From positions 1-32,543 of the forward strand of contig JALXCB010000195.1 of NCBI GenBank assembly GCA_026991225.1: a stretch of DNA of 32,543 bases, in the 5' to 3' direction. Shown here piece after piece: positions 14,160 to 30,985 of the stretch (within the stretch, counting starts at the first letter, position 1; each line of letters starts with the position of its first letter). The stretch is from Anaerolineae bacterium (GTDB lineage Bacteria; Chloroflexota; Anaerolineae; J102). Below the pieces are notes generated by a model. It made no database searches and had not been told where the DNA came from. It saw nothing but the letters and a program-made list of their open reading frames with translations. The position numbers were made by a program, and so were the translations under genes.

Positions 14160-14195
14160 GTTCGCTTCCTTTTGCAGATTGTGGTATCCTATCCA

Positions 14196-14233
14196 GAGAG
14201 CCAGAAGGCCAGAGGTCAGAAGGCCGGAAGGCA
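14196..14233 (+). repeat. CCAGAAGGCCAGAGGTCAGAAGGCC word repeat
   Basis: Tandem AGAAGGCC/AGAGGTC words fill the gap between rlmI and the nucleotidyltransferase gene. They resemble, in build but not in sequence, the other intergenic word repeats. No gene is seen in 14160-14282. Confidence 0.45.
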
Positions 14234-14282
14234 TTCGACGAGGCGACTACACGATCCAACGATCACAAAGCCAACCGATTCC

Positions 14283-16799
14283 ATGAAAGCCATTGTCATG
14301 GCTGGAGGGCAGGGGTCGCGGCTGCGTCCCCTCACCATCTCTCGCCCCAAACCCCTCATTCCCCTGGTGAACAAGCCGATGGTGGCGCACATTATCGACT
14401 GGCTGCGCCGCCATCAGATAACCGAGGTTGTGCTTACTTTGCAGCATCAGGCGGATTGGTTTCAAGGGTATCTGGGCGCGGGAACAGGCCTGGGGGTGAA
14501 AATCGCGTATGCCGTGGAGGAATCGCCGTTGGGCACGGCGGGCGGCGTGCGCAACACCATCGAGCAAGGGTTGGTGGATTTCGATGAAACGGTGCTCATC
14601 GTCAGCGGCGACGCGGTGACCGATTTCGATCTGCGGGCGCTGGTGGATTTTCATGAGAAGAAAGGGGCCGAGGTGACGGTGGCCCTGCATCAGGTGGAGA
14701 ATCCCCTGGAATATGGCATGGTGATCACCGAACCGGACGGGCGCATTGTGCAGTTTGTAGAAAAGCCCGGCTGGGCGGAGGTGGTCAGTGATCTGGTGAA
14801 TACGGGCATTTATGTGATGCGGGCCAGGGCGCTGGCTTCGGTCCCGCCGGATGAGCCCTATGACTTCAGCAGTGATCTCTTTCCCTTGCTGCTTTCCCAG
14901 GGGCGTCCGCTCTATGGCTTGCCCATGGCGGGTTACTGGACCGATGCGGGTTCGCCGTCCGAATACATGCGGGCCAGCTTCGACATGCTGCGCGACCGGG
15001 TATGGCATGAACCCTTCGGCGAGGAGCGTCAGAAGGGCGTCTGGGTGGGGGATAATGTGGTGATCCACGAGTCGGCCCAGGTGAACGGTCCTGTGTTTTT
15101 GGGAAACAACGTGCGCATCAAAGCGGACGTCATCCTCGAAGGCCCGGCCGTGATTCGGGATGATACGATGGTGGATGCGCGGGCGAGCATCTCTCGCAGC
15201 GTTCTGTGGCGCGGCTGCTATGTAGGCGAAGGCGCGGAGATCAACGGCGCCATCATCAGCAAGCAATGCGTGATCAAACGCAACGCCCGTGTGCATCAGG
15301 GCGTGGTCATCGGCGACAAGACCGTCATCGGCGAAAGCGCGGTCATCCATCCCAACGTGAAGATCTGGCCCGAAAAGGAGGTGGAGGCGGGTGCGGAGGT
15401 GCGGGAGAGCATCATCTGGGCGGGCCAGCGGGGACGACGGGCGCTGTTCGGGCGGTTTGGCGTCACGGGCGTGGTGAATGTGGACCTGACGCCCGAATTC
15501 GCGGCCAAGCTGGGGGTGGCGTTTGGGGCCAGTCTGCCCAAAAACAGCATTGTCACCATCAACCGCGACCGGCATCCTGGCTCGCGGATGCTGAAGCGGG
15601 CGATTATCTCCGGGCTGCCCGCTGCGGGGGTGCAGGTGTTGGACCTGCGCACCCAGCCCATTCCCGTTGCCCGCTACTTCACTCGGATTTCCGAGGCCGA
15701 AGCGGGCGTGCATGTGCGCATTTCCCCGCACGATCGTCAGGTGGTGGACATTCGGTTCATCAACAAGCGCGGCATGAACCTGGGGCGGGTCAAGGAGAGG
15801 GAGGTGGAGCGCCTCTTCTTCCGGGAGGATTTCCGACGGGTGCAGGTGGATGAGATCGGGCGCATCGATTACGCATCCGATGTGGTGACGGCCTATTCCC
15901 AAGGCTTTCTCGCGGGTTTGAACGTTGACGTGGTGCGGGAGCGGGCGTTTTCGCTGGCGGTGGATTACGCCCATGGGTCGACCACGGATGTGCTGGAACC
16001 TTTGCTCGACGCGATGCAGGTGGATATCGTAAGTCTCAACGCCCGCCCGGAATTCTTCATGCTATCCACCTCGCCCGAGGAGTGGGAACTGCTGCTGGAG
16101 CGTCTGGGCAAATTGACGGTGACCATGGGGCTGGACCTGGGGGCGATGCTGGATGTGAGCGGCGAGAAGCTTTATCTGGTGGATGACTTTGGCCGACGCA
16201 TCTCCGACATGCTGGCGGCTGTGCTGCTGGCGGACCTGATGTGGCGCGTGGATCCGGGACGATCCATCGCCGTGCCGGTGGACGCTCCCACCGTCTTCGA
16301 GACCCTGGCCGAAAAGTATGGCGGGCGGGTGGTGCGCACGCGGGTGGATGTACAGGCGCTCATGACCGAGGCCGCAGCCGAAAATGTCGTGCTCGCCCTG
16401 AATGGCAACGGCCATTTCATCTTCTCCTGTTTCCATCCCGCGCCCGATGGCATGTTTGCGCTGGCGAAGTTCCTGGAATTCCTCGCTATTCAGGATGTGA
16501 CTCTCTCCCAGGCAACGGAGGAGCTTCCTCCCTTCTATCGCGTCCACGCCACCATCCATTGCCCGCTGGCCGAAAAGGGGCGCATCATGCGCGAAGTGAA
16601 CGAGGGCGTGGCGCCCTATCTGATCGACGCCATCGACGGCGTGCGCTTCTCGGCGGGCGAGGGGCGCTGGGTGCTCATCCGCCCTGATGCGGATCGCCCC
16701 CTGCTGCATATCGTGGCCCAAGGTCAGAGCGCGGAGGACGCAGCGAGGCTGGTCGAACAACAGATTAAGTGGGTGGCCAGCCTGATCAGCATGGATTGA
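14283..16799 (+). CDS. Mannose-1-phosphate guanylyltransferase / phosphomannomutase-like fusion
   Basis: An 838-residue three-part protein. Residues 1-235 are a sugar-1-phosphate nucleotidyltransferase with GGQGSRLRPLT (8-18), K23-P-K24-type PKPLIPLVNKP and the metal/sugar motifs VSGDAVTD and VEKPGW. Residues 253-365 form a left-handed beta-helix of hexapeptide repeats (VWVGDNVVIHESAQVNG, VVIGDKTVIGESAVIHP). Residues 385-838 follow the four-domain phosphohexomutase fold. The mutase part has RISPHD at 479-484 where active enzymes have the phosphoserine TASHNP loop, and LDVSGEKLYLVDD where the Mg loop DxDGDR is expected, so catalysis there is doubtful. Similar fusions of about 840 residues occur in cyanobacteria and actinobacteria. 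It would supply GDP-mannose or a related nucleotide sugar. The exact nucleotide is not readable. Confidence 0.85.
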   Translation: MKAIVMAGGQGSRLRPLTISRPKPLIPLVNKPMVAHIIDWLRRHQITEVVLTLQHQADWFQGYLGAGTGLGVKIAYAVEESPLGTAGGVRNTIEQGLVDFDETVLIVSGDAVTDFDLRALVDFHEKKGAEVTVALHQVENPLEYGMVITEPDGRIVQFVEKPGWAEVVSDLVNTGIYVMRARALASVPPDEPYDFSSDLFPLLLSQGRPLYGLPMAGYWTDAGSPSEYMRASFDMLRDRVWHEPFGEERQKGVWVGDNVVIHESAQVNGPVFLGNNVRIKADVILEGPAVIRDDTMVDARASISRSVLWRGCYVGEGAEINGAIISKQCVIKRNARVHQGVVIGDKTVIGESAVIHPNVKIWPEKEVEAGAEVRESIIWAGQRGRRALFGRFGVTGVVNVDLTPEFAAKLGVAFGASLPKNSIVTINRDRHPGSRMLKRAIISGLPAAGVQVLDLRTQPIPVARYFTRISEAEAGVHVRISPHDRQVVDIRFINKRGMNLGRVKEREVERLFFREDFRRVQVDEIGRIDYASDVVTAYSQGFLAGLNVDVVRERAFSLAVDYAHGSTTDVLEPLLDAMQVDIVSLNARPEFFMLSTSPEEWELLLERLGKLTVTMGLDLGAMLDVSGEKLYLVDDFGRRISDMLAAVLLADLMWRVDPGRSIAVPVDAPTVFETLAEKYGGRVVRTRVDVQALMTEAAAENVVLALNGNGHFIFSCFHPAPDGMFALAKFLEFLAIQDVTLSQATEELPPFYRVHATIHCPLAEKGRIMREVNEGVAPYLIDAIDGVRFSAGEGRWVLIRPDADRPLLHIVAQGQSAEDAARLVEQQIKWVASLISMD

Positions 16800-16963: not shown

Positions 16964-17966
<1,003 letters not shown>

Positions 17967-17974
<8 letters not shown>

Positions 17975-18992
17975 GCAGACCCCCGCCCCCACCAACGGAC
18001 ATGGAAAAAAGGAGGACATCCTTCTTGAGGTCAAAGACCTCAAGATGTATTTCCCCATCACCAAGGGCATTATCATCCAGCGCAAGATCGCGGATGTGAA
18101 AGCGGTGGATGGCGTCAGCTTCAGCATCAAACGGGGTGAGACATTGGGCCTGGTGGGTGAGTCCGGCTGCGGCAAATCCACCACAGGGCGCGCCATCCTG
18201 CAACTTTATCGCCCCACGGCAGGCAGTGTGCAGTTTGAAGGTAAGGAGCTGACCACGCTGAAAGGGGAAGCGTTGCGACGTCAACGCCGCGAGATGCAGA
18301 TGATCTTCCAGGACCCATACGCCTCCTTGAATCCACGTCTTACGGTGGGCAACATCATTGGCGAGCCGTTGGAAGTGCATAATCTGGCCAAGGGCAAGGA
18401 AAAGCGCGAGCGGGTGCAGGAGCTCCTCAAGCTGGTGGGGCTCAACCCCTACTTCATCAACCGCTATCCCCACGAATTTTCGGGGGGGCAGCGGCAGCGC
18501 ATCGGCATCGCCCGGGCCCTGGCTGTGAATCCCAAGTTCATCGTGGCGGATGAGCCTATTTCCGCGCTGGACGTCTCCATTCAGGCGCAGATCGTGAACC
18601 TGCTGGAGGACTTGCAGGCCGATCTGGGATTGACCTACCTGTTCATCGCCCACGATCTTTCCATGGTTCGCCACATTTCCGATCGCGTCGCCGTGATGTA
18701 TCTGGGGAAGATCGTCGAATTGACCGATCACGAGACCTTGTACGAGAATCCGCTGCATCCTTATACCAAGGCTCTGCTTTCCGCTGTGCCCATTCCCGAT
18801 CCTTATATCGAGGAAAAGCGGCAACGCATTGTGTTGGAAGGCGATGTGCCTTCGCCTACGAATCCGCCATCGGGTTGCAATTTCCGCACCCGCTGTCCGC
18901 AGGTCATGGACATTTGTGCGGAGCAAGACCCTGAATGGAAGAACGTGGGTGCCCCTGAGAAGGAGCATTGGGTCGCCTGTCATCTTTACTGA
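17967..18992 (+). CDS. oppF: Peptide ABC transporter ATPase OppF/DppF
   Basis: A 341-residue partner ATPase of OppD. Walker A GESGCGKS at 64-71, [14 protein letters not shown], signature FSGGQRQR at 171-178, Walker B FIVADEP and FIAHDLSMV are all intact. C304, C310, C317 and C338 repeat the Cys pattern of OppD. The N-terminus carries a short Pro/Gly/Lys-rich lead of about 17 residues before the ABC fold. The open frame extends upstream to 17829, but the ATG at 17967 overlaps the oppD stop (ATGCCTGA) and has AAAGGAGG upstream, which fits translational coupling. It forms the ATPase heterodimer with OppD beneath the OppB/OppC permease. Confidence 0.96.
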
Positions 18993-19171
18993 GCGTCCAG
19001 AGGCCCCTCGTAAGTTCGTTATCAGCAGCCCGTCAAAACAATCTCACGTTCCCTGCATCGCTCTCGTTTCCAGGGCTGTTGTCATAAATTCCAATCGTCG
19101 GTCAAACGACTTTTCACATCCGATTGTCTGAAAAAGGAGGTAGGAAAAGCCACAGCAACTCTTTCCGCGTG

Positions 19172-19200
19172 AAAACGACAGCCTGGCACGCTGGCGTTTT
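19172..19200 (+). terminator. Stem-loop between oppF and the binding-protein gene
   Basis: AAAACG-A-CAGC (19172-19182) pairs with GCTG-G-CGTTTT (19190-19200), with one internal mismatch and a 7-base loop. It ends in TTTT, so it may partly terminate or act as a processing site, letting the binding-protein gene be expressed separately. The 278-base gap holds no gene. An isolated AAGGAGG at 19134-19140 is not followed by a start codon. Confidence 0.45.
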
Positions 19201-19270
19201 ACACACATCGTTGTCGTGCGCAAATCCGCGCGTTCCCAAATTCTTCCACTCATAGGAGGAGAAAAGAAGC

Positions 19271-21148
19271 ATGTCTCGTAACAAGTGGATTGTCTTGATT
19301 CTGGTGCTCGCTCTTGGCATAGTTGCACTGAGCGCTTGCGGCGGCCAGAGCACCCCTCAGGTCGTCGAGAAGGTCGTGGAAAAGACCGTCGTCGTCACCC
19401 AGGTGGTGGAGAAGGAAGTCGAGAAGACTGTGGTGGTGACCGAGGTCGTTGAGAAAGAGGTCGTCGTCACGCCGACGCCTGCTCCGGCCACCGAGGTCGT
19501 CCTGAACCTGAACCTGGGCACCGAGCCCCCCACCCTGGATCCCTCGCTGGCTACCGACACGACCTCCATCGACGTGTTGGGCAACATCATGGCCGGCCTG
19601 ACCTGGATCGACGCCGAGACCAACGAGCCCGTGCCCTACCTGGCCGAATCCTGGGATGTGAACGATGATGTCACCGAATTCACCTTCCATCTGCGCCAGG
19701 ACAATAACTGGGTGCGGTACAACACCGGCACCGGCGAAATTGAGGTGATGCGCCCCGTCACCGCTGAGGATGTGGCTTACGGCGTCCGCCGTACTCTGGA
19801 TCCCCGCACGGCTTCCGACTACGCCTATGTGCTCTACATTATCAAGGGCGGCGAGGAACTGAACACCGCAGACCTGGACGCGCTGAGCGACGAGGAAGTG
19901 CAGGCCCTGTTCGACAACCTGGGTGTGGAAGTCATCGACGATTATACCATCAAGTTCACCCTGGCGGATCCCGCTCCTTACTTCCCCTCCATTGCCAGCA
20001 TGTGGGTGGCGTTCCCCATGCCCAAAGAGGTCATCGAGGATAAGGGCGAGCGCTGGATCGAGCCTGGCATCATCTGGACCAACGGCCCCATGGTGCTGAC
20101 CAAGTGGGCGCATGACGACAGCCTGCAACTGCGCAAGAACCCCAACTGGTGGGGCGCTGATGATGTGCAGATCGATGTCATTGATTACGTGATGGTCACC
20201 GAAGCCTCCACCGCCTTCGCCATGTACGAAGCTGGCGACCTGGATGTGGCTGGCGTGCCTCTGGACGAGATCGATCGCGTGAAGGCCGATCCCGAACTGA
20301 GCAAGCAGCTCACCATCGCCCCCGCTCCTTGCACCTACTACTACGGCTTCATCAACACCAAGGCCCCCGTGGATGACGCCAACGTGCGCCGCGCCCTCTC
20401 TGCGGCCATCGACCGCAAGGGCCTGGTGGAGAATGTGACCAAGGGCGGTCAGATTCCGGCCAACACCTTTGCCCCCGCCATGATCTTCGGTAGCGCAGCC
20501 GGCGATCCCGACATCGCTCCCTGGGCCCTGCCCGAGGAGATGGGCGGAACCGGCTATGACAAAGCGCTCGAGATGGCTAAGGGCTGGCTGAAAGACGCCG
20601 GTTACAACGACGGCTCCGAGCTGGGCACCATCACCCTGATGCACAACACCTCCGAGGGCCACGCCCGCATCGCCCAGGCCATCGCGGCCATGTGGAAGGA
20701 CGCCCTCAATGTAGATGTGGCTGTCGAGAATCAGGAGTGGAAAGTGTACCTGAACACCATCAAGAAGGACACCCCCATCGAAGAGGTGCCCCACGTCTTC
20801 CGCCTGGGCTGGTGCGCGGACTACCCCGATCAGAACAACTGGCTGAACGAGGTGTTCAATCCTGAAATCGGCGCCAACCGCCTGCGCTGGGACAACAAAG
20901 AGTTCGCCGAACTGATGCGCAAGGCCCGCGCTTCCACGGATCCCGAAGCGCGCAAGGCCATGTATAAGCGCGGCGAGCAGATTCTGGTGGACGAGGAAGC
21001 CGCCATGGCTCCCATCTACTACTACACCACCGTCACCATGACCAAGCCCTGGGTCACCTACCGCACCCTCGGCACGGTGGGCCCCGCCGGTCATTACACC
21101 TGGAAGATCGATTGGGAAGCCAAGAAAGCGGCCCTCGGTCTGAAATAA
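19271..21148 (+). CDS. Peptide-binding lipoprotein (SBP family 5, OppA/DppA-like)
   Basis: A 625-residue extracytoplasmic solute-binding protein. The lipoprotein signal has lipobox LSAC with C23. Residues 31-68 are a repetitive VVEK/VVVT linker, then TPTPAPA, a form characteristic of Chloroflexota binding proteins and probably a flexible stalk. The SBP_bac_5 domain runs from about 76 to the end: LNLGTEPPTLDPSLATD, FTFHLRQDNNWV, AEDVAYGVRRTLDPRTASDYAY, LRKNPNWWG, YYYGFINTKAPVDDANVRRALSAAIDRKGLV. It delivers peptides to OppBC. AGGAGGAG lies about ten bases before the ATG. Stem-loops on both sides suggest higher expression than its operon partners, as is usual for binding proteins. The ligand class is inferred from the family and neighbours. 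Confidence 0.95.
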   Translation: MSRNKWIVLILVLALGIVALSACGGQSTPQVVEKVVEKTVVVTQVVEKEVEKTVVVTEVVEKEVVVTPTPAPATEVVLNLNLGTEPPTLDPSLATDTTSIDVLGNIMAGLTWIDAETNEPVPYLAESWDVNDDVTEFTFHLRQDNNWVRYNTGTGEIEVMRPVTAEDVAYGVRRTLDPRTASDYAYVLYIIKGGEELNTADLDALSDEEVQALFDNLGVEVIDDYTIKFTLADPAPYFPSIASMWVAFPMPKEVIEDKGERWIEPGIIWTNGPMVLTKWAHDDSLQLRKNPNWWGADDVQIDVIDYVMVTEASTAFAMYEAGDLDVAGVPLDEIDRVKADPELSKQLTIAPAPCTYYYGFINTKAPVDDANVRRALSAAIDRKGLVENVTKGGQIPANTFAPAMIFGSAAGDPDIAPWALPEEMGGTGYDKALEMAKGWLKDAGYNDGSELGTITLMHNTSEGHARIAQAIAAMWKDALNVDVAVENQEWKVYLNTIKKDTPIEEVPHVFRLGWCADYPDQNNWLNEVFNPEIGANRLRWDNKEFAELMRKARASTDPEARKAMYKRGEQILVDEEAAMAPIYYYTTVTMTKPWVTYRTLGTVGPAGHYTWKIDWEAKKAALGLK

Positions 21149-21168
21149 CCCCCTTCACCCGCATTTCA

Positions 21169-21200
21169 GGCTGGCGGCTTCATTGTAGAGGCCGCCAGCC
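21169..21200 (+). terminator. Strong hairpin after the binding-protein gene
   Basis: GGCTGGCGGC (21169-21178) and GCCGCCAGCC (21191-21200) form a perfect 10-bp stem. The downstream bases are TTCCTCTC, not a clean T-run, so partial termination or 3'-end stabilisation of the binding-protein mRNA is more likely than full termination. Confidence 0.6.
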
Positions 21201-21220
21201 TTCCTCTCAGCACGCCCCTG

Positions 21221-21297
21221 GGATATTAGGCAGTGGATATTGGATATTGCTTGCTGTTGTAATGTCCGATGCCCATTGACTAATATCCAATCTCAAC
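21221..21297 (+). repeat. GGATATT-type palindromic intergenic repeat
   Basis: GGATATTAGG, GTGGATATTGGATATTG and the reverse TAATATCCAATC. ATTGGATATT (21239-21248) is exactly complementary to AATATCCAAT (21282-21291). It lies between the binding-protein hairpin and oppB. Confidence 0.6.
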
Positions 21298-21316
21298 TTT
21301 CCGAGGATACGGGACT

Positions 21317-22387
21317 ATGTTACAGTTTGTTATTCGGCGTATCATCTGGACCATTCCTGTGCTGTTCCTGGTTACATTCTTTACATTCGCGCTGGTGCGG
21401 GCTATTCCCGGCGGCCCCTTTGATTTTGCCGGTGACAAAAGTCTGCCTCCTACCGTGGTGAAGAATCTGGAGGCGAAATATCATCTCAATGATCCGCTGT
21501 GGCAGCAGTTTTGTTCCTATCTCATCGGCGACACGGTGTGTCGACCGGGACAGGAACAGAACGGGGTGCCCAGCAAGGGCATTCTGCTGGGCGATCTGGG
21601 ACCCTCCTTCCGCTATCGCGGCCGCACGGTGAACGACATCATCGCCACCGCGCTTCCCATCTCCGCCCAATTGGGTTTCATGGCCGTGATGCTGGGAATG
21701 CTGATCGGCATTCCCGCGGGGATCATCGCCGCGCTCAAACACAACACCCCCATCGACTATACCGCGACATTCGTCGCCGTATTGGGCGTGTCCATCTCAA
21801 ACGTCGTGTTGGGCCCCTTCCTGATCTGGATATTTGCGCTCAAACTCGGCTGGTTCCCGGTGGCCACGTGGGCGGCGGAGCCCTTATTCTCCAACATCGC
21901 GGAGAAATACATTGCCGCGGGCGAACCGATTCCCATGTGGGTCAACCTCATTCCCAAACCCACGGTGGATTTCTTCATGCATGCGGTGTTGCCCGTGGTC
22001 ACCCTGGGCACGGCCCTTTCCGCCAGCCTTGCTCGTCTCACCCGTGGCAGCCTGTTGCAGGTTATTCGCGAGGATTACATCCGCACGGCCCGGGCCAAAG
22101 GGCTGCGTGAACGGGCCGTCATCATCACCCACGCCCTGAAGAACAGCATGATCCCCGTGGTCACCATCCTGGGGCCCATGTTCGCTGGCGTACTCACAGG
22201 CACCTTCGTGGTGGAGCAGATCTTCGCCATTCCCGGCTTGGGACGCCACTTTGTGACCAGCGTCGGCAACCGGGACTATCCCGTCGTTCTGGGCACCACC
22301 CTGGTTTATGCCGTCGCCATCGTCATCGCCAACATGTTTGTGGATATCACTTACGCCTGGCTCGATCCCCGTGTGCGTCTAGAGTAG
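21317..22387 (+). CDS. oppB: Peptide ABC transporter permease OppB/DppB
   Basis: A 356-residue inner-membrane permease. The N-terminal BPD_transp_1_N motif MLQFVIRRIIWTIPVLFLVTFFTFALVRAIPGGPFD is complete. Five further helices include the EAA loop YIRTARAKGLRERAVIITHALKN, which contacts OppD/F, and it ends WLDPRVRLE. It is some 30-40 residues longer than typical OppB (about 310-330). The additions lie in the periplasmic loop after helix 1, with a Cys pair in FCSYLIGDTVC, and in the later loop around WAAEPLFSNIAEKYIAAGEPIP. The Cys pair could form a disulfide. GAGG lies 11 bases before the ATG. It is separated from the binding-protein gene by a hairpin and a repeat, and 59 bases precede oppC. 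Confidence 0.95.
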   Translation: MLQFVIRRIIWTIPVLFLVTFFTFALVRAIPGGPFDFAGDKSLPPTVVKNLEAKYHLNDPLWQQFCSYLIGDTVCRPGQEQNGVPSKGILLGDLGPSFRYRGRTVNDIIATALPISAQLGFMAVMLGMLIGIPAGIIAALKHNTPIDYTATFVAVLGVSISNVVLGPFLIWIFALKLGWFPVATWAAEPLFSNIAEKYIAAGEPIPMWVNLIPKPTVDFFMHAVLPVVTLGTALSASLARLTRGSLLQVIREDYIRTARAKGLRERAVIITHALKNSMIPVVTILGPMFAGVLTGTFVVEQIFAIPGLGRHFVTSVGNRDYPVVLGTTLVYAVAIVIANMFVDITYAWLDPRVRLE

Positions 22388-22446
22388 TTGCAATCCGTAA
22401 GCCTTGCAATTAAATTCGATTTCATTCATTTTTGGAGAAACGTTCT

Positions 22447-23649
22447 ATGACCACTGCCACCGACACATCGCCCAAGGACCTTGATCTTGCTGCACAGCGA
22501 TCCCGGTCGCCGTTGCGCGATGCGATGAGCCAGTTTTTCAAGAACAAGGTCGCTGTTGGGGCGTTGATTTTTATCATCATCGAAATCATCATTGCCATCC
22601 CGCCCGTGACCGACGCCATCGCACCTTTTCCCTATGATAAAACCAGCCTCTACGATAATCTGGCGCCTCCCGGCGCTCCCTACACGGGACGCGACCCCGA
22701 ATTTCAGGGAAAGACTTTCTTGCTTGGCGCAGATTATTTGGGCCGCGACCTGTTGAGCCGAACCCTCTATGGCGCCCAGGTCTCCCTGGCGGTGGGATTC
22801 GTTGGCGCCACGGTGAGCCTGTTGGTGGGCACCCTCATCGGGCTGATCTCTGGATACAGCCGCCCGGCCATCGATAACATCATCATGCGCTTGGTGGACT
22901 TTCTTTATGCACTGCCCATCCTCGTGTTCATCATCCTAATGCAGGTCTACTTCAAGGCGGTGGCCAGAACGGAGAGTTCCGCCGGATTGGAGCCATTCAC
23001 CCTCCCGAGCTGGTTCGGGTGGGTGGTCCTAGGATTTTTTGTGGTGGCGGTCGTCGCAGGCGTCTATATGGCCCGGCGTGAGGACGGCGGCGGGATTCAC
23101 TACCTTTTCGTCTTTCTGGCCGGGGCCCTGGTGCTCTCCTTCGTCTTATTCATCGCGCTGGTCATGAGCACCGGCCGCAGCTTCATGGCCAGCCTGGTGG
23201 AGATCGACAACGCGTTCGGCGGCATGTTCTTCCTCTTCATCGCCCTGGGCCTTTTGAACTGGATCGGCATGGCCCGTATCACGCGCGGGCAGGTGCTCAG
23301 CGTGAAGAACAAAGAATATGTGGAAGCGGCCCGGGCCATCGGAGCCAACGACCGCCGCATCATCTTCCAGCACCTCCTGCCCAACGTCCTCGGCCCGGCC
23401 ATCATCTACGAAACCCTGGCCATTCCCGGCTACATTTTCACCGAGGCTTTCCTCAGCTTCATCGGCCTGGGCATCAATCCCCCTCGCCCCAGTTGGGGGA
23501 ACATGATCTCCGAAAACTATCAGGGCCTGCGCGCGGCCCCCTGGACCGTGCTCGTGCCCAGTCTGGCCCTGACCCTCACCGTGCTGGCCTTCAACTTCCT
23601 GGGCGATGGCCTGCGCGACGCCTTCGACCCGCGCCTGCGCGGCGAATAA
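22447..23649 (+). CDS. oppC: Peptide ABC transporter permease OppC/DppC, enlarged
   Basis: A 400-residue permease, against about 300 for typical OppC. The usual features are present: N-terminal helix (34-54), TFLLGADYLGRDLLSR (the LGTDxxGRDxxSR motif), the EAA loop EYVEAARAIGANDRRIIFQHLLPN (290-313) and the end FNFLGDGLRDAFDPRLR. Between LYALPILVFIILMQVYFK and FGGMFFLFIALGLLNWIGMARI there is an extra segment of about 85 residues (170-255), with two added hydrophobic helices near 191-209 and 217-240. ATG 22447 follows GGAG. A TTG start at 22432 would consume that ribosome-binding site and is rejected. A terminator-like hairpin follows 49 bases after the stop. Confidence 0.94.
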   Translation: MTTATDTSPKDLDLAAQRSRSPLRDAMSQFFKNKVAVGALIFIIIEIIIAIPPVTDAIAPFPYDKTSLYDNLAPPGAPYTGRDPEFQGKTFLLGADYLGRDLLSRTLYGAQVSLAVGFVGATVSLLVGTLIGLISGYSRPAIDNIIMRLVDFLYALPILVFIILMQVYFKAVARTESSAGLEPFTLPSWFGWVVLGFFVVAVVAGVYMARREDGGGIHYLFVFLAGALVLSFVLFIALVMSTGRSFMASLVEIDNAFGGMFFLFIALGLLNWIGMARITRGQVLSVKNKEYVEAARAIGANDRRIIFQHLLPNVLGPAIIYETLAIPGYIFTEAFLSFIGLGINPPRPSWGNMISENYQGLRAAPWTVLVPSLALTLTVLAFNFLGDGLRDAFDPRLRGE

Positions 23650-25253: not shown

Positions 25254-27044
25254 CTAGTAGAATGCCGGGGAGTAGATGATGGCCGTGAGTGCGAGGTCCA
25301 CCAGGGCGAAGAGAAAAAAGCTGGTAATGGGGCCGGGATTGTCGGCCCGGCGAATGTAGAGGACCATGATCCCGAAGGCGATGAGGAAGATGCTCAGGGG
25401 GATGAGGAGCAGCAGGACCATGGACCAGGCCGCGGGCAGGGTGCGGATCAGGGTGGGGCTGGCGAGGGTGGGGGCGAAGGCCACGATTTTGACGACGTAG
25501 TAGAGGAGCATGGCCGCGAGGAGCTGGATGCGGCCTGTACGCGTGGTCAGCTTACGATCCCGCCCCAAGAGGGCCAGCAGGCCCAACAGCACCAGAGGCA
25601 GGAGGAAGATGAACAACAGCATGGGGATGAGCGCGCTCGCAGCCAGCAGACCGAATCCCACCTCCCCGGCGATATCATCCATCATGTCGCTGCGGGTAAG
25701 CTGCAATGCGCCCTGCATCCAGGCGCGGGACGTGGTGGACAGCAGCACCAGGTATTTCCCCGCGCCCCGATAATCGAGCCAGGCCGCGTACAGATTCCCC
25801 GCGTCATCGCTCGCCCCCACCGGCTTGCTGGAGATGAAGCGGCTGCGGGCGATGGGGGCATAGCCCGCCTGCCCGCCATCCGCCAGCGCCACCATCACCG
25901 GCTGCAATTCGCTCTTCATGCGATAGGTGAGTTTGGCCGTCATCAGCAGGATGGCGCGGTCGCCCGGCGGGGAGTTTTGCAGGGCGCCGGGATAGAGCAC
26001 GTAGCCGCTGAGTCGGCCCGCGGGAGCGGCGAAGGGAATGAAATCGCCCTCTTGGGGCCAGGCTTCCCGGCCCGGGATCCCTTCGGGGATGGCGATATCG
26101 AATTCCCGAGTCTGGTCGGGGCGTCCCGCGGGGAAGGAGATGACGGTGACGGAAGCGGTGCCCGCGCTCAACCCCGAAAGGCGCTCCAGGTGCCAGAACG
26201 CGTAGAGATGCCCGTCGTCGCCCGTCAGCGCGGGGGAGGAGAAGCGCAGGCCGGGGTTGCGGCCATGCCGTTTGATCTGAACGCCCTCCACCGGGCCTGC
26301 GGGGGCGTCGCCCAAAGGCGCGTAGAGGATGATCCGATCCCCTTCCAGCTCCCGGTCGAGATGCCAGAGCAAGTGCAATGCGCCCGCGGCGTCTCGGAAC
26401 AGCGAAGGCCCCTGCCCTCGTTCCACCAGCAGGATGGGATCGCCACCCGCGGGTTCGGCATCCAGCCCGGTCAGGCGGCGGTGGAAGATCATGCGGGCGT
26501 CATCTTCGGGCCGCCGGGCTTCCCACACCAGGTCGAGCGCGCCGTCGGGACGGAGGAGGGCGTCGTAGCTGACAACGCGGGCGTCATCGGGCGTGATGCG
26601 TTGGGCCGGGGCCAGCAGGTCGCCCTGGGGCGAGAGGCGCAGGTAGAAGACGCCGGGGATGCCCTCTTTGTGGGGCTTGGCCAGGGTGAGAAGCCCCCGC
26701 TCGCCATTGGCCAGGGTAAAGAGCCGATAGCGCCGGGGGAGGAACAGGCCCGTTCCCAAATCCACGTCCGAAACCACGCCCCGATCCCGCTGGATGCGGG
26801 CGGCGTGGAGATCGATGCGCCCGGCCTGTTTGCTGCCCCAAACCAGTTGCACTCCCTCGCCCCTCTCGTCCACCTGCATGGCCGGGGCCTCGTGCAACTG
26901 GCTGACGCCCACCAGCAGCCCCCGTCCCCACCGCGTGTCCAGGGGCAGGGTGCGGGTGGGCGTGGCGCGGCAGCCGGTCAGAAGCAGCAGAAAAAGGGCG
27001 AGGGCCGGCAGGACGCGCCAGCGGGGAGGGTGGATTTCGGGCAT
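25254..27044 (-). CDS. Lipoprotein with large surface domain and C-terminal membrane domain, unrecognised
   Basis: A 596-residue protein of no family I recognise. The signal has lipobox LTGC with C25. Residues about 45-455 look like a beta-propeller of sialidase/BNR-like build: repeated blade-like phrases such as DGALDLVWEARRPEDDARMIFHRRL, AGALHLLWHLDREL, DGHLYAFWHLERL and AGNLYAAWLDYRGAG. The last 130 residues hold four hydrophobic helices (about 468-492, 505-525, 535-560 and 570-590). Lipid anchor plus polytopic tail on one chain is an odd topology: both ends are membrane-held with the propeller outside. It is transcribed away from the permease-peptidase fusion, from a shared gap. It might serve that protein or be unrelated. 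Both strands in this region have long open frames, but only this one has a coherent signal and helices. Confidence 0.75.
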   Translation of the reverse strand: MPEIHPPRWRVLPALALFLLLLTGCRATPTRTLPLDTRWGRGLLVGVSQLHEAPAMQVDERGEGVQLVWGSKQAGRIDLHAARIQRDRGVVSDVDLGTGLFLPRRYRLFTLANGERGLLTLAKPHKEGIPGVFYLRLSPQGDLLAPAQRITPDDARVVSYDALLRPDGALDLVWEARRPEDDARMIFHRRLTGLDAEPAGGDPILLVERGQGPSLFRDAAGALHLLWHLDRELEGDRIILYAPLGDAPAGPVEGVQIKRHGRNPGLRFSSPALTGDDGHLYAFWHLERLSGLSAGTASVTVISFPAGRPDQTREFDIAIPEGIPGREAWPQEGDFIPFAAPAGRLSGYVLYPGALQNSPPGDRAILLMTAKLTYRMKSELQPVMVALADGGQAGYAPIARSRFISSKPVGASDDAGNLYAAWLDYRGAGKYLVLLSTTSRAWMQGALQLTRSDMMDDIAGEVGFGLLAASALIPMLLFIFLLPLVLLGLLALLGRDRKLTTRTGRIQLLAAMLLYYVVKIVAFAPTLASPTLIRTLPAAWSMVLLLLIPLSIFLIAFGIMVLYIRRADNPGPITSFFLFALVDLALTAIIYSPAFY

Positions 27045-27310: not shown

Positions 27311-30300
27311 ATGACGACCCCTTCGAACTCCCTGACCGCGCCCCTCAAGCCCGCGCCGGAAGAGGGCGGCGCCGATTTTTCCCTCATGGACAGCGTCCGT
27401 TCGGGCGCGGAGATGATCCTGCTGTTTGGCGGGCGGCTGGCCATGGCCCTGATCACCCTGTTCGTGATCGCGTATGTGGCCTTTGTGGGACTGCGCATGG
27501 CGCAGGGGATCGATTTCGCGCCGGCGCTGGCGTTGGGGCTGGGCGATCTGGGAGAATGGTTGCGGGCGTTGCTGCATGGCGACCTGGGCTTGAGTTCGTC
27601 CGCCTCCCGAGGGCTGCGCCCCGTGCCGGTGAGCAGCGTCCTGCCTGCCATCCTCATCCGCAGTTTCGGGCTGATGGCGGCGGCGCTGCTTTTGACCTTG
27701 TTGATTGGCGTTCCCCTGGGGGCCGTCTCCGCCAAACAGCGGAATTCCCGGCTCTCCCTGGTGACGTTCGTCCTCTCTCTGCTGGGCGCGTCGCTGCCCA
27801 CCTTCTTCATCGCCATGCTCTTGCAGATGGCCGTGCTGGGATACATGCGCCGGACGGGGCAGCCCGCGCCGCTGCCCGTGGGCGGCTTCGGCTGGGACGC
27901 GCATATCGTGCTGCCGGCCCTGGTGCTGGCGGCCCGGCCCATCGCGCAGGTGGCCCGGGTGACCCATCTCTCCCTGGTGGAGCAGCTCGACGCGGATTTC
28001 GTGCGCACGGCCCGGGCCAAGGGGCTGCGGGAATGGCGCATCTGGACGGGGCATATCGCCCGCAATGCAGCCATCCCCATCCTGACGACGCTGGCCACCA
28101 CCCTGCGCTTCACCCTCTCCTCCCTGGCCATCGTCGAATTGTTCTTCGGATGGCCGGGCGTCGGCTTCAACCTGTTGCGGGCCATTGGCTCGGGGGATAC
28201 GAATCTGACAGTGGCGCTGCTCCTCAGCCTGGGCGTGCTGTTCATCATCATCAACTGGCTGGTGGAGTGGGCTTATGGACGGCTGGACCCGCGGGTCAAG
28301 CGGGCGCTGAGCGCGCATCGCCGCGAGGGGAGCGCGTGGCGCGAGAGTCTGGCCGCGCTGTTCTACACCCTGCGCGACGCCGTTCTCAACCTGCCGGGCC
28401 TCTCCCGCTTCCGTTCGCAGGAGCCCGCGTGGGACAACGCGTTCCGGACGGCCATCCAAAAGCAGATCGCCATGAACCCGCAGGTCATCGACGTGGGAGA
28501 GGATGAGCGCAAGCGGGAGCGGCGTCGGGCCTGGATGCGGGGCACGGTGGGGAATGTCCCCCTGATGATGGGGGGGATCATCGTGCTGGGGCTGCTGTTC
28601 ATCATCATCGCCGGGCCGCGCCTCTGGCCCCACAATCCTTACAACACCACGGGTCTGGTCATCGAAGGGGGCGAGTTCAAGGTGCCGCCCTTCCCGCCCG
28701 ACGCGGAATATCCCTGGGGCACGGACGCGTTGGGCCGAGATATGATGAGCCTGATCCTGGCCGGGGCGTCGCTGACGGTGGGGATCGCGCTGGCGGTGAT
28801 GGTCATGCGCATCCTCATTGGGTTCGTCCTGGGCGCGATAGCGGGCTGGTCGGAGGGAGGAAAGGTGGATCGGCTGATCATGGGCGCGGCCGAGGTGCTT
28901 TCCGCCTTTCCTGTGCTGATCCTGGCCATGATGATCATCCTGGCCCTGGGAATTCGCAACGGGCCCTGGGTGTTCGTGGTGGCGCTGGGGCTGGTGGGAT
29001 GGACGGAGACCATGCAGTTCGTGCGCTCCAAGGTGATCAGCATCCGTCCCACCGCGTATATCGAGAGCGCCATCGCCACGGGGCTGCGCACGCCCGAATT
29101 GATCATGCGCCATGTGCTGCCCAATCTGGCGACGGCCATCATCGCCCTGGCTGCGCTGGAGATCGCGGCGGCGCTCATGCTGTTGGGCGAGCTGGGCTTC
29201 ATCGGCATTTTCATCGGCGGCGGCGCGTTTGCAGAGCTGGATATCGGCGCGGCCGCGTATCACTATTCCGACGTGCCCGAATGGGGGGCGCTGCTGGCGA
29301 ACATTCGCACCTATGCCCGGGCTTATCCCTGGATGGCCATCTACCCCGCGTCCGCGTTCGCCATCACGATTTTGGGCTTCAATCTGCTGGGCGAGGGCCT
29401 GGGGCGGCTGATCCACGAGATCGGCGCGGCCTTCGGGCGCATTTTCAACCGCCGCACGGTGCTGGCCCTCATCGCTCTCTTCCTGTTCGTGAACTGGGTG
29501 GGGGGGCGCTCCAACGCGGCCGCGCTCTACGCCGACCAGTCGCAGGGCTATGACGGCATGGCCGCGTATGAGCACACGGCGGCGCTGGCCGGGCCCGACA
29601 CGCAGGGGCGCCGGTTCGATATGCCCGATGGCGAGGCCGCGGCGGAGTATATCGCCCAACAGTTCCGGGCGTTTGGATTGCAGCCCGCGGGCCAGGAAGG
29701 GACCTATTTCCAGACCCGCCGCCGCGATTTCGCAGTGCTGGCCAATATCCCCGAACTGCGTTTCTCCGGCCCCGACCTGTCGCTGACCGATTTGACCTAT
29801 GGCAGGGATTTCGCGGCCTTCTACAGCCCCGATCTGAACCAGGGGCAGGCGCAGGCTCCCATCCGATATGCGGGATTCAGCAAGCTGGAGGCCACGAGCT
29901 CATCCAGCTTCGGCCCCGCCCGCTATCGGGCGCTGAAGGAGGAGGATTTCAGCCAGGATATCGTGCTGGTGACGTCGGTGGAGCACGCCCGCTATCTGCG
30001 GTATGAGAAGAAGAAGGGCCTGCTGGTGGTGGCTCCGCCCGACCTGGATCTGGCCCGCTACACCCTGTTCTCGGCCCGAGACCCGCAGGTCTCCAAGTTC
30101 GGCACGGGCCGCAAGGTGGGGTCGGTGACGCCTACGCTGTGGATCAGCGAGGAGGTGGCCAATCGATTGCTGGCCGCCAAGGGCGTCACCGTGGCGGATC
30201 TGCGCCGCTATGAAGCGAAGATGGAGCCGGAGAGCGTGGCCTCCTTCGATCTGGGCGTGGACGCGGCCATGAATCTGGAGATGGAAATCCACGAGGGCGT

Positions 30301-30985
30301 GCCCGCGCGGCATGTCATCGGCCATCTGCCGGGCCTGGATACGACGCTGAACGACCAGATGATCCTGGTGCTGGCTCAATACGACGGTCTGGGCGCGGGG
30401 CCGGATGGAACCATCTATCCGGGAGCCAATGACAACGCCTCCTCCATCGGCGTCATGCTGGAGATGCTGCGGGTGTGGCAGGAGGCGGGGTATCAGCCCA
30501 ACCGCACGTTCCTGTTCGTGGCTTATGTGGGCGAGGGGTATGAGACGGGCCACAGCCCTGACGAAGCCTTCGATCCCAAGACGTTCCTCAAGGCGAAGGC
30601 GGGGTTCCTCAACGCTTTCGACCTGGACGCCATCGTGTTCCTGCGGGGTCTGGGGACGGGCGAGGCCGAGGTGATGACGTACGATTCCGGGGGCAATTTG
30701 CGTCTGGCCAATGTGTTCGACGACGCCGCGGGCCGGGCGGGGTTGAAGGCCCGGGCCGCGCGGGACGCGGTGGACCTGAACGTGCTTTACCGGACGCGGC
30801 AGCGCACGTTCTTCGACTCGGGCGGTCAGGTCGCGCCCACCATCCGCATCAGCTTCAAGGGCTGGGATGCGCACAGCGGCCTGCCCTCCGACACGCTGGA
30901 GACCCTGCATCCCGATTGGATGACGAAGATGGGCAAGGCCCTTTCCACCGCGCTCATGGTCATGGGCCAGGAGGAGCGGTATTGA
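27311..30985 (+). CDS. OppB-OppC permease fused to an M28-like peptidase domain
   Basis: One 1224-residue chain. Residues 36-330 are an OppB-type permease with EAA loop ADFVRTARAKGLREW (228-242), ending YGRLDPRVK. A cytoplasmic linker (331-410) is rich in Arg and Glu. Residues 411-700 are an OppC-type permease with YPWGTDALGRDMMS (467-480), EAA loop AYIESAIATGLRTPELIMRHVLPN (582-605) and FNLLGEGLGRLI. A helix (715-731) leads to residues 740-1224, an extracytoplasmic M28-like aminopeptidase domain: a PA-like insert, then LVLAQYDGLG (1019-1028), YPGANDNASS (1037-1045), FVAYVGEGYETG (1069-1080) and WDAHSGLPSDT (1185-1195). The first zinc-ligand His of AHxD is Q1023, and the EE pair is GE at 1074-1075, while D1025, D1041 and H1188 are kept. 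ATG 27311 follows GAGAGGA. No ATPase or binding protein adjoins it. No stop or frameshift interrupts the fusion. Confidence 0.9.
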   Translation: MTTPSNSLTAPLKPAPEEGGADFSLMDSVRSGAEMILLFGGRLAMALITLFVIAYVAFVGLRMAQGIDFAPALALGLGDLGEWLRALLHGDLGLSSSASRGLRPVPVSSVLPAILIRSFGLMAAALLLTLLIGVPLGAVSAKQRNSRLSLVTFVLSLLGASLPTFFIAMLLQMAVLGYMRRTGQPAPLPVGGFGWDAHIVLPALVLAARPIAQVARVTHLSLVEQLDADFVRTARAKGLREWRIWTGHIARNAAIPILTTLATTLRFTLSSLAIVELFFGWPGVGFNLLRAIGSGDTNLTVALLLSLGVLFIIINWLVEWAYGRLDPRVKRALSAHRREGSAWRESLAALFYTLRDAVLNLPGLSRFRSQEPAWDNAFRTAIQKQIAMNPQVIDVGEDERKRERRRAWMRGTVGNVPLMMGGIIVLGLLFIIIAGPRLWPHNPYNTTGLVIEGGEFKVPPFPPDAEYPWGTDALGRDMMSLILAGASLTVGIALAVMVMRILIGFVLGAIAGWSEGGKVDRLIMGAAEVLSAFPVLILAMMIILALGIRNGPWVFVVALGLVGWTETMQFVRSKVISIRPTAYIESAIATGLRTPELIMRHVLPNLATAIIALAALEIAAALMLLGELGFIGIFIGGGAFAELDIGAAAYHYSDVPEWGALLANIRTYARAYPWMAIYPASAFAITILGFNLLGEGLGRLIHEIGAAFGRIFNRRTVLALIALFLFVNWVGGRSNAAALYADQSQGYDGMAAYEHTAALAGPDTQGRRFDMPDGEAAAEYIAQQFRAFGLQPAGQEGTYFQTRRRDFAVLANIPELRFSGPDLSLTDLTYGRDFAAFYSPDLNQGQAQAPIRYAGFSKLEATSSSSFGPARYRALKEEDFSQDIVLVTSVEHARYLRYEKKKGLLVVAPPDLDLARYTLFSARDPQVSKFGTGRKVGSVTPTLWISEEVANRLLAAKGVTVADLRRYEAKMEPESVASFDLGVDAAMNLEMEIHEGVPARHVIGHLPGLDTTLNDQMILVLAQYDGLGAGPDGTIYPGANDNASSIGVMLEMLRVWQEAGYQPNRTFLFVAYVGEGYETGHSPDEAFDPKTFLKAKAGFLNAFDLDAIVFLRGLGTGEAEVMTYDSGGNLRLANVFDDAAGRAGLKARAARDAVDLNVLYRTRQRTFFDSGGQVAPTIRISFKGWDAHSGLPSDTLETLHPDWMTKMGKALSTALMVMGQEERY

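Follow-up and report, generated by a model that had tools for sequence, protein, structure and literature searches.

On balance, the fusion gene described here is best read as a single-chain Opp-type permease carrying a dead extracytoplasmic domain of the M28 peptidase fold, which most likely acts as a non-catalytic capture or docking domain and probably derives from an active aminopeptidase. It lies near the end of the window (the whole stretch of Anaerolineae DNA that was analysed, 32,543 nucleotides in length). A preliminary description of this DNA had held that the M28 domain lost key zinc ligands, and the present analysis bears this out with a larger loss than was noted, namely three or four of five. 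The parts of the fusion are as follows.

27311-30985, plus strand: fusion open reading frame of 1224 amino acids, made up of an OppB-like part, an OppC-like part, the segment TM7 and an M28-like part with a PA-like insert
27548-28300, plus strand: OppB-like half of the permease (residues about 80-330) with its coupling loop retained
28565-29410, plus strand: OppC-like half of the permease (residues about 419-700) with its coupling loop retained
29456-29509, plus strand: TM7, an additional hydrophobic segment, residues about 716-733, which follows FNRR and links the permease to the M28 part
29540-30982, plus strand: M28-like domain, predicted to be extracytoplasmic, residues 744-1224
29753-30277, plus strand: putative PA-like insert, residues about 815-989, suggested by the BSAP fold match and without a match in Pfam

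The profile BPD_transp_1 was found twice in the fusion, once in the OppB-like and once in the OppC-like half, and two such halves with their coupling loops mark a Type I (Opp-like) ABC importer. The coupling-loop Gly, scored by reading alignment columns in B and C sets that each include five duplicate rows, is present in every one of the 35 B rows and in 38 of 39 C rows, the remaining C row being cut off. Against the NCBIfam Opp/Nik models, every score of the fusion permease fell under the respective cut-off. A hydrophobic linker between the OppC and M28 parts occurs in all 34 fusions checked. By the established positive-inside rule, the FNRR motif in front of the hydrophobic segment argues for placing the M28 part outside the membrane, a location on the permease chain that would suit a binding domain.

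Residues 1002-1211 of the fusion are matched by the M28 profile PF04389 (E 1.5e-10). An AF2 model of the M28 domain built from 17 rows reached a pLDDT of 68.4 and a pTM of 0.57, with several late loops, besides the Glu loop, under pLDDT 50, and modelling from six close sequences only gave a pLDDT of 48.5. Compared over the M28 part and the insert, the 17-row model matches BSAP/YwaD (6hc6) with a Z of 24.5 over 348 residues at an rmsd of 4.8, and its match to AAP (1amp) has a Z of 23.4 over 249 residues at an rmsd of 3.0. The two-lobed fold of a solute-binding protein (SBP), by which a permease-SBP fusion of the EgtUBC type is recognized, is absent from the fused domain, the M28 fold standing there instead. 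Two further matches are to nicalin (7tm3), found by sequence with the fusion's M28 domain (E 5.3e-5), and to transferrin receptor 1cx8, found by Foldseek with the model (E 1.2e-14). Nicalin has an M28 fold without catalysis and is a membrane-tethered partner. The transferrin receptor belongs to subfamily M28B and, according to PMC9768917, is not an enzyme. Profile and fold of the window's domain are those of family M28, but the full set of five zinc ligands is missing.

The zinc ligands of AAP are H97, D117, E152, D179 and H256, as listed in Table 1 of PMC7522609, and a reference title within the same paper assigns E151 a role in catalysis. The corresponding columns were taken from phmmer, the family alignment, a profile-profile alignment with intact paralogues and an alignment with M28s of viral contigs, and place the following residues at the former site.

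30377-30379, plus strand: Q1023 at the position of zinc ligand H97, within AQYDGLG
30431-30433, plus strand: D1041, the retained zinc ligand D117, in the GANDNAS loop
30533-30538, plus strand: E1075-G1076 where AAP has E151-E152, the register being uncertain by a single residue
30644-30646, plus strand: R1112 at the position of zinc ligand D179
30878-30880, plus strand: G1190 at the position of zinc ligand H256, with H1188 two residues upstream

In the gapless alignment to AAP and the intact paralogues, E1075 falls on the base E151 and G1076 on the ligand E152, and four of the five ligands of AAP are then lost in the window (H97 to Q1023, E152 to G1076, D179 to R1112 and H256 to G1190). E1075 occupies the column of the catalytic base in this gapless alignment; because the single Glu of sister fusions stands one column later and the Glu loop is modelled with a pLDDT below 50, E1075 may instead be the former E152 displaced by one residue. 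With this shift, three of the five ligands may have been lost, the base would also be gone, and D117 and E152 would be kept. As judged from the alignments, the loss thus amounts to three or four of five ligands depending on the Glu register, and the dinuclear M28 site would be unable to form in either.

The replacement of His by Gln (Q1023 in AQYDGLG) had been placed correctly in the preliminary description, as had the kept GANDNAS loop, which holds the ligand Asp D1041. The loss of the EE pair, read there as GE at 1074-1075, stands in substance and is uncertain in position, the gapless reading being EG at 1075-1076, whereas GE, with the base lost and the ligand kept, would need a one-residue shift. 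That ligand map, right for Q1023, overlooked the change of D179 to R1112. It counted the His of HSGLPSDT as the late ligand, but this residue, H1188, falls two positions short of the H256 column, where G1190 stands.

The conservation of the substitutions among homologues of the fusion, proposed earlier as a check, is indeed found: G1076 is shared by all 16 nearest fusions, R1112 by 14 and Q1023 by 12. Neither a His nor a Cys is invariant across these 16 (H1188 itself is not conserved), which speaks against a substitute metal site. A charge swap between R1112 and D1041 was considered and dropped as unsupported by covariation, because members with Gly at 1112 keep D1041 and two members with Arg have Asn or Ala there. 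Judged from these columns, the window's M28 domain very probably holds no zinc and very probably lacks peptide cleavage of the M28 type.

The altered domain is nevertheless maintained. In seven pairs of fusions, dN/dS is 0.10-0.31 for the M28 and PA parts vs 0.09-0.24 for the permease, ratios that are rough in five of the seven pairs owing to a dS of about 0.6-1.2. An M28 fold whose zinc site is destroyed and which remains under selection is the mark of a non-enzymatic M28 homologue, and codon comparison indicates that the window's domain is such a maintained pseudo-peptidase under purifying selection. In one relative (L058:1958-5631, genome G071), the frame of the fusion is broken inside the M28 part, by an assembly error or in reality.

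At the level of the class, 34 permease-fused rows were aligned, one of them without the core, and a complete zinc site was present in 0 of the 33 scorable domains. All seven columns carry letters in 25 fused rows, of which 15 keep a single ligand, two keep none, three keep three and five keep four; the fused rows share ancestry, so these counts are not independent events. All five ligands are kept by 15 of 20 unfused M28 proteins, from 15 genomes, a control drawn from 30 loci with best scores preferred and hence biased to canonical enzymes. Loci L031-L035 duplicate the contigs of L043, L045, L046, L044 and L049 and were excluded from the counts, except that the coupling-loop count has both. 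Ligand loss is also seen in the window's genus in an M28 protein that is not fused (L144:2681-3706, on contig 5 of the window's genome; also in L093 and L095), with Ala at E152, Asn at D179 and Arg at H256.

Matches to the fusion were found in 45 of 100 genomes in the sample of relatives (E 1e-3) and in 10 of 400 genomes in a scan of the phylum (E 1e-12), and the contigs of the relatives belong to Anaerolineae, Ardenticatena and Chloroflexota. Besides the arrangement B-C-M28 on one chain, there are loci with a separate B and a C-M28 fusion, several of which continue with a TolB-like propeller and a protein that carries M28 twice; in L069, L071, L073 and L074, the genes for B, C-M28 and the propeller precede this two-M28 protein. 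In the large two-M28 neighbours (roughly 1630 amino acids), the first M28 is intact in 8 of 8 and the second in 0 of 8, and the one that was scanned, from L073, is arranged as M28, Peptidase_MA_2 and M28. Large proteins of this kind, from 1410 (cut) to 1665 amino acids, occur in L068, L069, L070, L071, L073, L074, L075 and L076. A further architecture joins an N-terminal ATPase, OppB, OppC and M28 in a single chain of 1445-1501 amino acids (L059:67-4482, L062:206-4708 and L064:10353-14687).

Outside the window's class, the site is complete in six OppC-M28 fusions (L140, L145-L148 and L150), and fusion alone therefore need not entail loss; together with three fusions there that lack only the base, these six rule out the notion that a fused M28 is always dead. 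On contig 121 of G109 (L139:870-10109), one OppB gene is followed by three OppC-M28 genes in tandem, each with five ligands and with Gly as the base. In a tree of M28 domains, which omits the rows of L058, L072 and L077 and for which gaps in ligand columns were scored as lost, the 36 fused rows whose site is incomplete split from the other 35 rows with a branch support of 100/100. The M28 parts of the intact fusions cluster with free M28 in this tree, hence they possibly represent separate fusions, and the series is to be taken as a comparison and not as proven descent. In the permease tree, a long branch parts the fused OppC from three plain OppC, a topology to be read with the warning of long-branch joining. 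Compared by their site residues, the permease-fused relatives appear to form a graded series, from a complete site through ligands kept with the base lost and partial loss to the nearly complete loss in the window.

Part of the earlier case for a fused stand-in was that no separate SBP is encoded beside the fusion. The surroundings in the window are the following.

16964-18992, plus strand: ATPase genes (oppD, oppF) belonging to the upstream operon
19271-21148, plus strand: OppA solute-binding protein, SBP_bac_5 (PF00496, E 3e-76), ending 6.2 kb upstream of the fusion
21317-23649, plus strand: permease genes (oppB, oppC) belonging to the upstream operon
25254-27044, minus strand: divergent lipoprotein-like gene of 596 amino acids, a possible partner; G002, G012 and G021 likewise have a homologue close to the fusion

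A complete oppD-oppF-oppA-oppB-oppC operon (16964-23649) thus lies upstream of the fusion on the same strand, with a TolB-like gene between it and the lipoprotein-like gene, and the fusion is a separate unit behind the minus-strand gene 25254-27044. The PF00496 protein at 19271-21148 contradicts the statement about the neighbourhood, and the argument from a missing SBP fails because this SBP-containing oppDFABC operon is found 6 kb upstream within the window. What stays of the proposal that a non-cutting domain stands in for the SBP are the lost zinc site, the selection and the predicted outside location. The window also encodes, at 14172-16799, a nucleotidyltransferase fused to a phosphoglucomutase/phosphomannomutase (875 amino acids).

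The window's genome has seven SBP_bac_5 matches, six of them near permease genes on their own contig. The PF00496 matches taken from 28 genomes comprise the best rows of the listing. An orphan SBP_bac_5 gene (L143:6173-7948, contig 90 of the same genome) lies on a contig without a BPD_transp_1 permease and is a possible partner in trans. Thirteen fusion loci are flanked by at least 5 kb on both sides; an SBP within 8 kb was found in three of them, a separate ATPase within 8 kb in one and an ATPase in the chain in one, using profiles made from the genome's own SBPs and the ATPases of the loci, by which divergent ones may be missed. A dedicated SBP is often not adjacent to the fusions. The window's fusion has no adjacent ATPase; one lies downstream in L055 and is part of the chain in L059, L062 and L064, and the window's genome holds 62 ABC_tran matches, of which 57 are over the cut-off.

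An SBP is generally regarded as indispensable to such importers, and the dead domain might be a strict substitute for it, capturing peptides and handing them to the fused permease with no SBP in use. This is a tentative possibility, consistent with one outside domain per B-C pair, as in the fused SBPs treated in PMC9732360, with selection on a domain whose new residues are conserved at the old site and with the three SBPs in 13 loci; yet an SBP is encoded 6 kb upstream in the window and an orphan one elsewhere in its genome, intact fused M28s exist and the SBP fold is absent. Somewhat more doubtful, though of comparable standing, is a docking platform, in which the dead domain would hold an extracellular peptidase or a propeller lipoprotein at the permease and products would be made beside the importer. 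The lipoprotein gene found close to the fusion, both in the window and in G002, G012 and G021, points that way, as do the propeller gene and the intact-M28 protein of the split B and C-M28 loci L069, L071, L073 and L074 and the known M28 homologues that serve as receptors or partners. Against it, lipoprotein homologues occur in only three other genomes, and the single-chain fusions of the window's class have no large M28 protease beside them in the examined loci.

An enzyme that still works, with one zinc or by other chemistry at the old site, is very improbable: D1025, D1041 and E1075 are retained and several relatives hold four ligands, but the H97, D179 and H256 columns read Q, R and G, with Arg replacing a metal ligand, and the 16 nearest fusions offer no invariant His or Cys. 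Even less credible is a functionless remnant of a past peptidase in decay. Lineages do differ in which ligands they lost, as decay would have it, whereas the dN/dS of 0.10-0.31 in seven pairs, the full-length open frames and the conserved changed residues speak for a domain in use.

The preferred reading, a non-catalytic capture or docking domain on a single-chain permease, would have an active M28 aminopeptidase as the probable ancestor of the fused domain, which would be tethered behind the seventh transmembrane segment at the importer's outer mouth and serve there as a fixed, non-cutting module for capture or docking. That the domain captures or docks something is likely; replacement of the SBP and a platform for a partner are both possible, and that the M28 domain binds peptides, or has taken over the role of the SBP, is conjecture. 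A bolder account makes the importer's substrate receptor a derived peptidase: an aminopeptidase fused to OppC would have lost the base and then the ligands, taken over capture from the SBP and acquired a conserved Arg at a former Asp ligand, with relatives preserving the steps. This sequence of events is rather unlikely as a whole.

A peptidase fold appears to stand covalently at the place of the SBP, inactive in one clade and apparently still active in relatives, and the family makes testable both the coupling of cutting and uptake in one molecule and the transition from enzyme to receptor. No description of a permease-M28 fusion was found in the open-access papers listed for such fusions, nor among those listed for inactive M28.

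Compared with the M28 aminopeptidases BSAP/YwaD (6hc6) and AAP (1amp), the window's domain shares the fold and retains D117, the GANDNAS loop and the D99 position, but it has lost H97, E152 (or E151), D179 and H256 and is fused to an ABC permease. The permease part resembles OppB/OppC-type permeases in its two BPD_transp_1 domains and retained coupling loops, and differs from them in its sub-cut-off scores with the NCBIfam Opp/Nik models and in having no dedicated SBP or ATPase adjacent. In EgtUBC, an extracytoplasmic binding domain lies C-terminal to the permease on one chain, as described in PMC9732360, and OpuF is a further importer with a permease-fused binding domain according to a reference title within that paper; unlike in both, the fused domain of the window is an M28 pseudo-peptidase and not a two-lobed SBP, and B and C are joined as well. 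The transferrin receptor (1cx8) and nicalin (7tm3), as far as they are described, likewise have an M28 fold without catalysis and are membrane-tethered, while they are eukaryotic and stand outside ABC transporters, and the window's ligand is only putative. By analogy, the window's domain would resemble in its action the non-enzymatic M28 receptors and the permease-fused binding domains.
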